DNA of 64,000 bases from Nitzschia sp. DOCU1 (lineage: Eukaryota; Bacillariophyta; Bacillariophyceae; Bacillariales; Bacillariaceae), in the NCBI GenBank assembly GCA_951394045.1, contig OX595986.1:3377534-3441533 (forward strand), written 5' to 3'. A program made the position numbers and the translations under genes. Under the pieces are notes generated by a model. It did not search any database and was not told the DNA's origin. It worked only from the letters and a program-made list of their open reading frames with translations. Below are positions 17,400-55,238 of the stretch, piece by piece (positions within the stretch are counted from its first letter, which is position 1; each line of letters begins with the position of its first letter).

Positions 17400-18410
17400 A
17401 TGTCTGCTTTATCAGATCGAGATCGGATCCACAACAAGGATAAGCCATACGCTGTGACTTTCTTTGATTTTTACGACGTGCACCAGCTGTTGCACTACAC
17501 GAGCAAGATTCTCGAGCAACCCTTTTCGAATCCGGTTCAGCTTATTGACACTCGTAGTCAAAATGAAGACACTTCGCTCTTTTTGGATCTTCCTGTGCCT
17601 TGGCATCTGATCCCAGGGACGGGATGAAAACACAGCGATTATCTTGGCATTGGCACCTCAGGATCAGATCTCGATTTCAAGGAAGTCCTCGGGAAATCGC
17701 GCGCTGCAGTCTTGAATGACCCATCGCTCTTGAGCGAGCATCGTAATGAGTTCAAGGCATTCTTTGATCACGGGGGGACAATTTTTGTTATCGGTAGAGG
17801 TATAGAAACTGTCCATGAGATCTTTGGCTGCGATTGGTATCCTGCGGCATCCCATCCTGATCGAAACTGCGAATGCGTGCCTACTGGGGCAGCTGCATTT
17901 CTAATTGGATTGGAGAGCGATGAACGAGCTGTTTATCCGTCGGAGGTTTACGTTGGAAGGGCACGATTGATTGAAGTTCCTCGGGGCGAAGCACTTTACG
18001 TGCCGAGACCATACATCACCAAGCGCCAGTTTATCGCGCAAGATTGTGCTGTGGAAGAAGAATGGTATGACGACGAGAAGGAACAGATTGATCGGCGCAA
18101 GTTTCTTCAGAAGCACTACGGTGACCATGAAGCCCTTGAAGATATTTTGGAGCTGGAAGAGAAGTGGAAATCCTACGTTCCACCAACGGCCACACCAGTG
18201 GCGGTTCACCTTTCTCCACACGAGGGAGGAGGGGCCGTCGTGTACATCGGAGACGTTCTCAATGAAGACACTCGTATGAGATCCCTTCTGGCCAGACTGT
18301 TAACGACCAACTTTCAGGAACAAAAGAAGTTTTCCGGCGTCCCATACCGATACCGATCCATTCACGATGGGCCATCAGTTGGCTTGTACAAGGGTCATGT
18401 CCCCAACTAG
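17400..18410 (+). CDS. Unknown protein with an in-frame TGA (probably intronic)
   Basis: The frame from the ATG at 17400 is open to 18410 except for one TGA at 17625-17627. The best explanation is an intron at 17554-17661 (GTAGTC...CTCAG, 108 nt). Its removal deletes the TGA, keeps frame and gives a natural junction (LIDTR-SDLDFKEVLGKS), for a 300-residue protein. Other options are selenocysteine readthrough or a nonsense mutation. The protein has alpha/beta-like segments (GGTIFVIG, AAFLIGLES, AVVYIGDV) that loosely recall a class-I glutamine amidotransferase-like fold, but no catalytic motif can be assigned. The 3' UTR contains a 7-bp stem (18448-18454 with 18476-18482) that does not form a proper SECIS. 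It is convergent with the DsbA-like selenoprotein. I do not recognise the family. Confidence 0.6.
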
Positions 18411-18597
18411 AGGCCAATGGGGTTGAGGGCAACAGTGAAGAAATGGTGCCTCTCGGGGAGATGAAATCTGGATTGGAGAGGCTTATGATTTCCTTGTGGA
18501 GTAGCAACACGTAGAATAAATATCAAAGTTCATCGTCATTCTCAGTGCAAGTTACATTCACTTCCAGGTTACAGCTACATCCCGTCATGGATGGAAC

Positions 18598-18672
18598 AAG
18601 GCTTACATCGAGTCGAGACCAGGAGAGTGTATCAACACTCCTCATCTGGAACAAACTGTCATTTCAAGCCCT
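18598..18672 (-). ncRNA. SECIS-like element in the 3' UTR of the DsbA-like gene
   Basis: Read on the minus strand, 51-125 nt after the TAG stop. A 7-bp helix I pairs AGGGCTT (18672-18666) with AAGCCTT (18604-18598). After a small internal loop comes ATGAC opposite CGAT, giving the U-U, G-A, A-G, N-N non-Watson-Crick quartet. Helix II pairs AGTTTGTTCCAG with CTGGTCTCGACT, 12 positions each side: nine pairs and three pyrimidine-pyrimidine mismatches. The apical loop holds a mini-helix GAGTGT/ACACTC. The usual apical AA is not evident (ATGA stands there), so the call is good but not canonical. Confidence 0.6.
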
Positions 18673-18722
18673 GTCCACAAACATTGAAACAGGACACTGT
18701 GGACTTTCGCCGTCAAGCGCAT

Positions 18723-19704
18723 CTACGCGGCAATGATTTTCGGTGTGTGGCTTCCTCGACCTACTACCTCGTCAGGAACCCCAAGAATATCTCCAAATAC
18801 CGGTCCTCCGTGAATTTCACCCTTCATTTCGATTTCCCGGAAAACTTTCACAAAAACGTCTGATCGTGCAGCCCCATCGATGACCGTCCTGCCCTCGATG
18901 ATAAACTTTGGAATCGAGTGAATTCCCAGTTTGTTAAGCGCCTGTAGCGCCTTCATTATTTCTTCCCGTCCTTCGTTTCCATTCAAAAACTCCAAAAGTT
19001 CCGCCTCGGTCGGGACATCTTCGTCAAGCAAGTTGGAAAGTAATTCTGACACGGCACTTGCGAGGCGCGGACGATCGTTCAAAGAGTGGCCGTCAACGAA
19101 GTAGTACCTGTGGAACTGGTGAGAATGGACCAATTTGTCGCCTCGAGTCCATGCTTTACAATACGCATACTTACTCATTCAGACGATCGTAGACAGCCTC
19201 GCTTACAGCCAGTCCGTATCGTTTCCCTAAATTCTGGATCAATCGATGGGACGCCATTGTATTTGCCGCCAATCGGTCGAGATTAAAATGAGGGATACCG
19301 GCCTCCATGCCTCTCCCTTTGAGATCATGCCGACGCTTTTGTTCTTCCCAGCCACGTTTGCCACCCCATTTTTGTATCAGACGGTCCCGATTGCTTTCGA
19401 TGAACGGCTTGTCTTCGTCGTATCCGGGTTCCAAGAAGAATGGCACCCGTATGACAGAGAATGCAATCGGGCGAGGCGCACCGGGAAGAGGATCTTTAAG
19501 GACCTGTTCGATGGCCCGATTCAGATGCTTCTTCCCGATGTACCCGTTGGGTCACAGAGTATCCGAAATGAGCTCTACAGGAATCACCAACGGACTGGAA
19601 CCACTCAAATGTGTCGCAGAAGCCGAGAACTGTCTGACTGAATGGGTGGAAAGTCGATGACGGGCGACCTGCACCGCCGCACTTCGGAAGCTTGAGCAAA
19701 ACAT
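18723..19704 (-). CDS. DsbA/FrnE-like thioredoxin-fold selenoprotein, mitochondrial
   Basis: Exons 19704-19175 and 19107-18723 (GTAAGTATG...CCACAG, 67 nt intron) give 304 residues if TGA at 19554-19552 is read as selenocysteine 51. The TGA falls in VELISDTL-U-PNGYIGKK, exactly where family members have the CPxC or CPWC active site. Sequence on both sides aligns without a gap: AIEQVLKDPLPGAPRPI, GMEAGIPHFNLDRLAANTMA, YYFVDGHSLNDRP, LGIHSIPKFIIEG with the cis-Pro. The second cysteine is glycine, so the site is of the single-chalcogen type. The N-terminus (MFCSSFRSAAVQVARHRLST ... RQFSASA) looks like a mitochondrial presequence. A SECIS-like fold is in the 3' UTR. An oxidoreductase role is inferred. 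Without recoding the gene would be read as a broken fragment. Confidence 0.82.
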
Positions 19705-20214
19705 CGATTGGGCGCTACCTACGGCCGCTTATTGCCTTCTAGTTCTTGATTGCAGACGTCAAAAAGTCGATATCAAAGACCTATTATGCACAATGATGAT
19801 CCGCCTTGCGTTGCGGCACTTGTTTTGATGTCCTTTCTCGCAGTTGCTGCGCGAGAGAGCTCTTTTGCTTCCTTTTCTCGTGCCAACGCCACGTCATTTA
19901 GAGGAGAGGGAACCGTACAAGGACAGCCAGCAAGACACTAACTATGCCAAGTCATGTTTACCCCCTTTTGACTTTGGCTCACGACGCTTTTCTGGTAAAT
20001 TAGAGGCTGTCTGTCTTCCGTTTCCCACGACGAGATCTTTCCAGCGTCGCGGCGGGCCGTCAAGAAAGATCTTTCTTCTACATGATGACCATGGAAGGCA
20101 TCACCCCTCGATGTTACAACGAAGCTCTGAGAAAGCGATTCTTCTTACTTTTTGTATGCAGTTACGAACGTTAGTCAATCAAATTGTGTTGTGAAAGGCG
20201 ACGGAAAATCAGGA
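19705..20214. promoter_or_regulatory. Divergent intergenic region selenoprotein / THUMP methyltransferase
   Basis: About 510 bp. A 5' exon for the methyltransferase may be hidden here: a splice-acceptor-like TTTTTGTATGCAG ends at 20161, and small ORFs with hydrophobic N-termini start near 19786. I could not build a convincing model. Confidence 0.35.
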
Positions 20215-21504
20215 ATGTTGAGACGTGGAATACATGCCTTTAGACTATTTCTTGCGGTGACATCTTTGTTCGTCCAAGGCCTCGTCCTGCAAACTTGGAC
20301 GGTTGTGCCTCCCTCGACTAATCCAAACTCTCGCCTCAACGAGGAATTGCTAAAGACGCTTGAAGTTAAAACTGGTTTGAAATGTCAGCGAGTTGACCGA
20401 GGTCGCATCTGGCTCGAGGTGGCCGATCCATCCGTGCTAACGACGATTAATGCAAGGTCTGTTCGTCTTGTGGTTCTGGAACGGTCCGTCCATACAGAAA
20501 ATCTCTCTACCGACACAATCCTGGCATCCCTGTGTCAAGGCGAGGATTTCAAAGGGCAGATGGATAAAGCGATTCGTACCTGGGTGAACATGGGGAATGC
20601 TATTTCATGTAAGGAGCAAGGGAACAAGACGTTCGTTATCCAGTGCACGCGGTGGGACGGCTTTGTGAACCCACGTCAACCAACCACATTGCTTGTGAAT
20701 GCCATGTCAACCAAACTTGCCGACACGTTTGGCTGGAAACGAGTCAAAAAGTCTCAAGACCCGACATTTTCCCTTCATTTACTCTTATACGATTCTTCTG
20801 TGGCGCTCGAAATGGTAGTTTTGGCGCGGCCGATGGTCATTGACGAGCTACCCAAGCCGGGATTTAAGCGCGTCGAATCCTTTGTGGTGGGCAAAGCGGC
20901 AAGCATTGAGGCAAATCATATCGTCTTGGATCCCATGTGTGGTCGTGGAACCTTTCTAGTAGAGGCAGCTACTTTTTGGCCCGATGCCAAGTACTTTGGA
21001 GTTGACGCATCACCCGAGCAGCTTGGGGACGCCGCGTTGAACTGTCAGGCTGCCATGGTGAAAGTTGACCTGCGTATTGCTAATGCCAGTCAGCTGGCAC
21101 AATTTCCAGATTCATCCGTAGACAGAATACTATGCTGTCCGCCATTTGGTCGTCAGTTTGATAAATCCTCCTCTGAACTCTATGCGGACTTGCTCCTCGA
21201 ATGGTCTCGTGTCATAAAACCCGACGGCAAGATGGTGTTACTGATTGACAGCGGTAACCTGCTCGAACTAAAAGAAGCCATCACTACTGCTGGTTGCCAG
21301 GTTGTTTTCCAGCGGTCCGAGTTTTGGCTAGGAAAGATTCGTGCTACGATTCTCGTAGTCCACAAGGGTGACGCACAACCTAATGACAATTTGGTACAAT
21401 CAACACCATTTGATTGGGAGGTTGGTGAATTGAGGGGTCGCGCACTTTGGACGTCCCTTCGGTCGCAAGCATTACCAAAACTAATGCCTGTACGACTAAA
21501 GTAG
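20215..21504 (+). CDS. THUMP-domain-type RNA guanosine N2-methyltransferase (THUMPD3/Trm14-like)
   Basis: 429 residues from the ATG at 20215, after which a hydrophobic segment (FRLFLAVTSLFVQGLVL) could be a signal or targeting sequence. The C-terminal half is a Rossmann-fold UPF0020-type methyltransferase: DPMCGRGTFLVEA (SAM-binding motif I, about residue 240), YFGVDASPEQL (motif II), and the catalytic loop CCPPFGRQF (about 306, the N/D-PPFG-type motif), then VIKPDGKMVLLID. The N-terminal half has THUMP-like spacing (GNKTFVIQCTRW, STKLADTFGW). Relatives methylate guanosine N2 in tRNA. Which RNA is modified, and whether it acts in an organelle, is not shown. The true N-terminus may lie in an upstream exon. 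Confidence 0.8.
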   Translation: MLRRGIHAFRLFLAVTSLFVQGLVLQTWTVVPPSTNPNSRLNEELLKTLEVKTGLKCQRVDRGRIWLEVADPSVLTTINARSVRLVVLERSVHTENLSTDTILASLCQGEDFKGQMDKAIRTWVNMGNAISCKEQGNKTFVIQCTRWDGFVNPRQPTTLLVNAMSTKLADTFGWKRVKKSQDPTFSLHLLLYDSSVALEMVVLARPMVIDELPKPGFKRVESFVVGKAASIEANHIVLDPMCGRGTFLVEAATFWPDAKYFGVDASPEQLGDAALNCQAAMVKVDLRIANASQLAQFPDSSVDRILCCPPFGRQFDKSSSELYADLLLEWSRVIKPDGKMVLLIDSGNLLELKEAITTAGCQVVFQRSEFWLGKIRATILVVHKGDAQPNDNLVQSTPFDWEVGELRGRALWTSLRSQALPKLMPVRLK

Positions 21505-54363: not shown

Positions 54364-55238
54364 ATGGTGCATGACATTTTCTTCGCTTATGTGTGCCCCA
54401 GCTTGGGTGTGGTAATGTCAACTTTAATGTATCTGGCCCCTGTCAATGATCTGCGGGCGGCGTTGTTGGAAGGAAAGCTCGGAGCGCTGAATCCAGTGCC
54501 GTGGGCAGTGATGACTGGCAATTGTCTGGTAAGCAACCTTCTCGTTGTTATGTCGCTCTTTCTTATCGTGGTCGAGAAGCTCACTCTTGATACCTACAGG
54601 GATGGATGGCGTATGCCTATTACACAAAGGATCCCTTCATCCTTGCTAGCAACGTCCCAGGAATTATTGTCAGTGCATGGCTGAATATGGGGGCCGCCAA
54701 GTTGCAATATTTTCGCGTCCGTGAACTATCGAATGTTGAAGGGAGGACACCAGCAGAAAATAGGAAGTTCGAGCTGGTGCCCCAGGAGACTTTGCTTCTC
54801 AAAATTCTCAGTCTATGGATTTTGATTCTGGTATGCGTTGGGTGGTTCGGACTGACCCATGGTCATCAAATTGCGACGATCGGGATCCTTGTCAACATCA
54901 ATCTTTTATTTTTCTATGGGGCTCCTCTCCAGACAATCAGGGCAGTGATCTTAGAGGGAACTTCAGAGAGTATCCATCGTCCTTTGATGCGTACTAATTG
55001 GTTGAATACTTCGTTTTGGACTCTTTACGGACTGGTGGCACGGAACGACCCAGTAATCTATGGTCCAAACGCAATAGGGTTGTTATTCGGAATCATACAG
55101 GCGATTTTGTGCTGCATATACCCCGAAAGAGTGGAACCAGACGTAGATGTGGAGCCGCTGCTGTCCGAAGAGAATGTCGAGGCTAGTGCCTCATCAAGTC
55201 CGCTCACTGGTGAGGGTCCTGCGGGCGAGCTTGTCTAG
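54364..55238 (+). CDS. SWEET: SWEET-family sugar transporter
   Basis: Exons 54364-54528 and 54600-55238 (GTAAGCAA...CCTACAG, 71 nt) give 267 residues. Two MtN3/saliva units are separated by a central helix, for seven membrane segments. Unit 1 has SLGVVMSTLMYLAPVNDLR, NPVPWAVMTGNCLGWMAYAY and PFILASNVPGIIVSAWLN. Unit 2 has QIATIGILVNINLLFFYGAP, the PLMRTNWLNTSFWTLYGLVA block and YGPNAIGLLFGIIQAILCCI. The conserved membrane prolines and Asn/Trp pairs of the family are present. SWEETs are facilitators of mono- or disaccharide export across plasma or organelle membranes; the substrate is not predictable here. The C-terminus is acidic. The linker between units is longer than in plants (VREL-SNVEGRTPAENRKFE). 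Confidence 0.88.

Follow-up and report, generated by a model that had tools for sequence, protein, structure and literature searches.

The 64,000-nucleotide (nt) stretch of the diatom Nitzschia sp. DOCU1 analysed here (contig OX595986.1, positions 3,377,534 to 3,441,533; hereafter the window) carries on its reverse strand a two-exon gene for a DsbA/FrnE-fold protein, which is very probably a selenoprotein with selenocysteine (Sec, U) at the first active-site cysteine. Exon 1 (19175..19704) begins with ATG at 19704 and contains a possible mitochondrial presequence (residues 1-38), the Sec codon and the first part of the DsbA-like domain. Exon 2 (18723..19107) contains HSIPKF, which we take to be the cis-Pro region of the DsbA-like fold, and ends with TAG at 18725-18723. 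The 67-nt intron between them (19108..19174, GTAAGT...CAG) keeps the frame, and the homologous protein sequence is continuous across it.

The spliced open reading frame (ORF) comprises 915 nt and 304 amino acids, and the TGA at 19554-19552 is its sole interruption before the TAG. This codon is residue 51 in the motif U-P-N-G (GAT-ACT-CTG-TGA-CCC-AAC-GGG-TAC-ATC). An earlier note on this DNA had described a TGA in frame with ATG 19704 and a frame kept by splicing over 915 nt; both were found in the sequence once intron 19174-19108 was removed. A hairpin resembling a selenocysteine insertion sequence (SECIS) lies in the 3' untranslated region (UTR).

Fold and proposed chemistry of the active site

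With C typed for U, Pfam DSBA (PF01323) matched residues 43-264 at 3.9e-8 (33.7 bits against a cut-off of 25.6). The best solved relative by sequence was FrnE (5.2e-6), with U51 on the first Cys of CPWC and Gly on the second, which agrees with the earlier claim that the TGA stands at the catalytic cysteine. The protein was thus placed in the FrnE-like branch of DSBA by its domain score above the curated cut-off and its FrnE fold; the CxxC redox pair, typical of DsbA/FrnE proteins, is absent, the second Cys being Gly. When the genome (52.08 Mb, 63 contigs) was searched with the DSBA profile, the two-exon locus was not listed; the whole-protein search did find it, together with two distant paralogues (E about 1e-6), which the profile search had listed too, and a further match at E 1.01.

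The closest known systems are FrnE of Deinococcus radiodurans (5cnw, 5coh, 5xwh) and SCO1869 (3gl5). FrnE has Cys at both ends of CPWC, whereas the protein studied here has U first and Gly second, and its complete set of Cys and Sec is Cys at residue 3 and Sec at residue 51. Gly in the second position and the lack of Cys after residue 3 leave the main domain unable to form an internal selenenylsulfide. The single-selenol chemistry claimed by the earlier note is supported by this lack of Cys, as far as sequence can indicate it.

We propose that the UGA would be decoded by tRNA-Sec, eEFSec and the SECIS-like hairpin, placing Sec at the nucleophilic Cys position of FrnE, UPNG for CPWC. The selenolate would most likely attack a disulfide, a glutathione mixed disulfide or a peroxide as its substrate, and the intermediate would be resolved by an external thiol, e.g. 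glutathione. Resolution by an external thiol such as glutathione is known from monothiol glutaredoxins and glutathione peroxidases, and glutathione-resolved chemistry is our best guess here. We hold with considerable confidence that UGA is decoded as Sec in a DsbA/FrnE-fold protein, which would act as a single-selenol enzyme resolved by an external thiol. Frame, codon position, homologues, Sec machinery and hairpin are read directly from sequence; the insertion of Sec, the mitochondrial location, the mono-selenol chemistry and the part played by glutathione are inferred from them.

Alternatively, the Sec protein might not be a thiol-disulfide oxidase but the Sec-dependent counterpart of kappa-class glutathione transferase or of a disulfide reductase like DsbM. 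Kappa-class glutathione transferase / HCCA isomerase has a catalytic Ser where this protein has Sec; its structural match to the protein was well below that of FrnE. We regard this alternative as possible, if doubtful.

Homologues at the TGA site

Two protein searches gave 489 and 539 matches, from which the best 120 of each were taken, and a third search gave 3 matches. From the matches listed, 155 distinct homologous proteins were sorted; the genera named among them were Cylindrotheca, Nitzschia, Entomoneis, Mayamaea and Thalassiosira. Only six of the 155 span the site in frame, one with Cys (P0013, CPNG) and five with Trp. VPVELISDTL (and variants) upstream and PNGYIGK downstream are kept in all six, as is the Gly in place of the resolving cysteine, so that the conserved blocks on both sides of the TGA and the Cys-to-Gly replacement described earlier were both recovered. 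Among the proteins sorted, the UPNG site was seen in this gene alone, and as C or W in these six.

Five further proteins begin with [MV]TQ[RW], which back-translates to NTG-ACN-CAR, a sequence that includes a TGA and agrees with TGA-CCC-AA of the coding frame. For three of them an intron donor would account for the residues that come next. Two of the five, P0006 and P0037, carry transcriptome labels; there the caller appears to have left the frame to dodge the stop. Another 20 proteins have a different upstream start, in sequence that in large part resembles an intron, and 124 begin downstream of the site, including both models of Nitzschia inconspicua, which start with MAFSVLR. Judged from the protein sequences, this spread of starts is the database footprint expected of a conserved TGA. 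The search for Cys or U homologues that the earlier note had suggested yielded one Cys protein and five shifted-frame TGA, and the other site-spanning homologues read Trp.

The many downstream starts would also suit an ordinary stop or a recent mutation, leaving either a pseudogene or a protein translated from a downstream start. We consider this very improbable: the upstream segment is in frame in six homologues with PNGYIGK directly after the site, five other sequences point to a TGA at the equivalent position, and no further stop occurs elsewhere in the 915-nt frame. According to the structure model, a protein begun downstream of the TGA would have neither the first beta strand nor the active site.

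Five public diatom models (P0060, P0066, P0104, P0114 and P0129) start past the Sec site or are marked partial, and the active site is therefore absent from their annotations. Most database records of the family begin at a wrong start.

Selenocysteine machinery and the 3' UTR hairpin

SepSecS was found in the genome, with five tRNA-Sec genes (72-74 bits). Four are in tandem within about 550 bases (L006-L008, G000:C5:639526-640069) and were confirmed with anticodon TCA; the fifth is at G000:C6:887673-887758. Two SelD genes were present, one of them SPS2 with U in LKGUACK, and a 750-amino-acid frame on contig C5 (L040) is presumably eEFSec from its appearance.

Both distant paralogues also have a TGA at the first active-site position: L001 (G000:C9:1711194-1711799, reverse strand) with UPWC and L002 (G000:C5:483429-484052, forward strand) with UPFC. 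They carry the UxxC motif, which the studied gene does not, and the genome therefore contains at least three Sec-type DsbA-fold genes. A DsbA-like gene with a CPYS active site, which lacks the second Cys there (L003, G000:C3:2267944-2268435, forward strand), has no in-frame TGA and ends in TGA; it is one of ten genes whose last codon was read, and in it TGA also serves as a stop. The MsrA (PMSR) search gave 15 matches, which include multiple exons of a single gene, and three (L025, L026 and L029) have TGA in GUFWG/T. Together with three GPX, one SelT-like and one SelM-like gene and the two DSBA paralogues, these three MsrA genes made up ten controls with TGA at known or paralogous Sec positions. 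The in-frame TGA of L028, an organellar EF-Tu-like gene, looks intronic by eye and was rejected as Sec.

Reading of the TGA as Trp or Cys through an altered code or near-cognate readthrough would match the W recorded in five homologues, but is the least credible explanation, since the translated in-frame TGAs of the searched families fell at known Sec positions (GPX, MsrA GUFWG/T, SelM, SPS2) or by eye in introns (L027, L028), L003 is terminated by TGA, tRNA-Sec is encoded, and a SECIS-like hairpin lies past the gene.

This hairpin (18594..18676, reverse strand) starts 46 nt past the stop. It has a helix I of 12 contiguous pairs, three of them G-U, a quartet ATGA (18662-18659, 60 nt past the stop)/CGAT (18610-18607), a helix II and a long mini-stem. 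A hairpin with quartet thus exists as the earlier note described, but its extent of 18598-18672 and its 7-bp helix I were too small. A 95-nt stretch here folds at -33.8 kcal/mol (z -3.15), and 3 of 200 shuffles were equally good. The combined score of inner stem and helix I, -27.9, was the top on both strands of the window by a narrow margin (runner-up -26.9 at 54447, forward strand). When the 622 nt downstream of the gene were dinucleotide-shuffled 1000 times, two shuffles attained this score. The scan criteria (quartet, helix I length) were altered between successive scans; the hairpin was missing from an earlier scan in which folding was unconstrained, and one earlier scan ranked a larger, different hairpin above it. 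The hairpin is likely a SECIS element, although this is not proven.

The 3' UTRs of the ten controls were scanned in several ways. The canonical pattern (NTGA, 10-13 nt, AA or CC, 15-39 nt, GA; criteria from the accessible text of PMC2375036) matched one of the ten. Its match about 400 nt past the stop of the studied gene was weak, lay opposite a convergent ORF, and was not accepted as a SECIS. A scan for ATGA only, with helix I of at least 5 pairs, found matches in 3/10, and a looser scan (any NTGA, helix I at least 4) in 8/10, with none in L014 and L017. In the looser scan, the shuffles out of 200 that reached the score numbered 0 for the studied gene, L013 and L030, 1 for L002, 3 for L029, 14 for L012, 17 for L026, 34 for L025 and 39 for L001.

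AATGA[AC] occurs within the first 200 nt past the stop in all ten controls (L001, L002, L012, L013, L014, L017, L025, L026, L029 and L030), compared with a background of 92 in 638 windows taken from this sequence; the binomial value of 3.9e-9 is optimistic because the motif was chosen after the looser scan was viewed. Anchored on AATGA[AC], in a scan run without shuffle control, the GPX gene L013 scored -36.1, L002 -32.2, and the studied hairpin -30.3, tied third of eleven with SelT L017. Eight of the ten controls scored -20 or better, the L025 structure being long and odd, and the SelM gene L030 and the GPX gene L014 were weak. A SECIS model specific to this genome looks feasible. The studied gene contains AATGA[AC] twice, first within GAAATGAC in the hairpin. 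Its second copy, AATGAC (GAGAATGACGATG), is at about 18540 on the reverse strand, 182 nt past the stop and outside the hairpin, and no stable hairpin scored on it.

Several observations weigh against the proposed explanation. The unpaired apical AA of a standard SECIS is absent from the hairpin. By eye, no AA stands 10-13 nt past the quartet in the hairpins of L001, L013 and the MSRA gene L026 either, which suggests that SECIS elements of this genome can lack the apical AA; this would hide selenoprotein genes from standard patterns. GAATGAC is present in 7/10 controls, as against GAAATGAC in the hairpin, and the gene's own GAATGAC sits outside it. Rfam SECIS_1 did not match the hairpin region, and in the genome search, which scored 134 of 977 first-look candidates, no match had an E of 10 or below. 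This is not strong counter-evidence because the GPX and MsrA selenoprotein genes of this genome went unlisted too. No SelB match in the genome reached the NCBIfam cut-off, and those other than L040 are, by eye, presumably plastid tufA, EF1A or eIF2-gamma. The active-site turn has a predicted local distance difference test (pLDDT) value below 50 in the structure model. The TGA in relatives is deduced from proteins only, because the viral and prokaryotic genome contigs scanned for DNA of relatives gave none that was confirmed. Finally, the W in five of the six site-spanning homologues may be either a genuine TGG or a TGA translated with code 4; Trp is named as a possible Sec replacement in the accessible text of PMC7539508.

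Relation to known selenoproteins, leader and neighbouring ORFs

Sec-containing DsbA is described as one of the algal selenoproteins with the widest distribution (PMC7539508), and PMC6627142 reports selenoproteins of the FrnE kind from Mamiellophyceae and M. viride. Considering these publications, as far as their accessible text goes, the novelty is smaller than the earlier note implied. That text gives no DsbA or FrnE motif to compare with UPNG in either paper, and the terms UxxG and CPNG are absent from the main text of PMC7539508. DsbA selenoproteins with UxxC are known from sea squirts and amphioxus (PMC2874816), and others from further marine invertebrates (PMC3473315). According to the available part of PMC2874816, Sec is likewise at the upstream active-site Cys and published gene models had begun downstream; the motif differs, UxxC against UPNG. 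A precedent for a Pfam DSBA selenoprotein without resolving Cys is the prokaryotic 'DsbA 3' of the GOS ocean metagenome survey (five sequences; PMC2398784), with UxxV instead of UPNG, a comparison made by its description only. The UxxG entries in the accessible part of PMC13188914 are arsenite methyltransferase, rhodanese-like and methyltransferase fusion proteins.

No DsbA with UPNG or UxxG was found in the accessible text of the literature searched. What appears new from the sequence is a eukaryotic FrnE-like selenoprotein with UPNG and no Cys beyond residue 3, i.e. a mono-selenol variant. If true, it would show a two-cysteine redox enzyme turning into a one-selenium enzyme.

Diatoms rank among the major primary producers, and several of them require selenium. 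It is quite possible, though somewhat less likely than not, that a mitochondrial one-selenol enzyme of the DsbA fold is general among diatoms, with a lone encoded Sec as the sole reactive thiol or selenol of the mature protein, resolved by glutathione or another small thiol; it would be a selenium counterpart of kappa-class glutathione transferase or monothiol glutaredoxin on the FrnE scaffold and not a disulfide oxidase. A diatom family in which the lone thiol or selenol outside the leader can be one Sec offers a concrete candidate for the selenium need.

The first 38 residues contain no acidic residue and have an RQF-S cleavage-like motif. Each of the six leaders examined carries a net positive charge. 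Five contain R-x-F/L-S/A, a permissive pattern for which no null was scored; the exception is P0013, whose leader is 20 residues long. These features suggest that a mitochondrial leader is plausible.

Two ORFs on the forward strand flank the selenoprotein gene. The one at 20131-21504 contains the motif DPMCGRGTFLVEAA, which we take to be methyltransferase-like, and the one at 17628-18410 is convergent on the gene.
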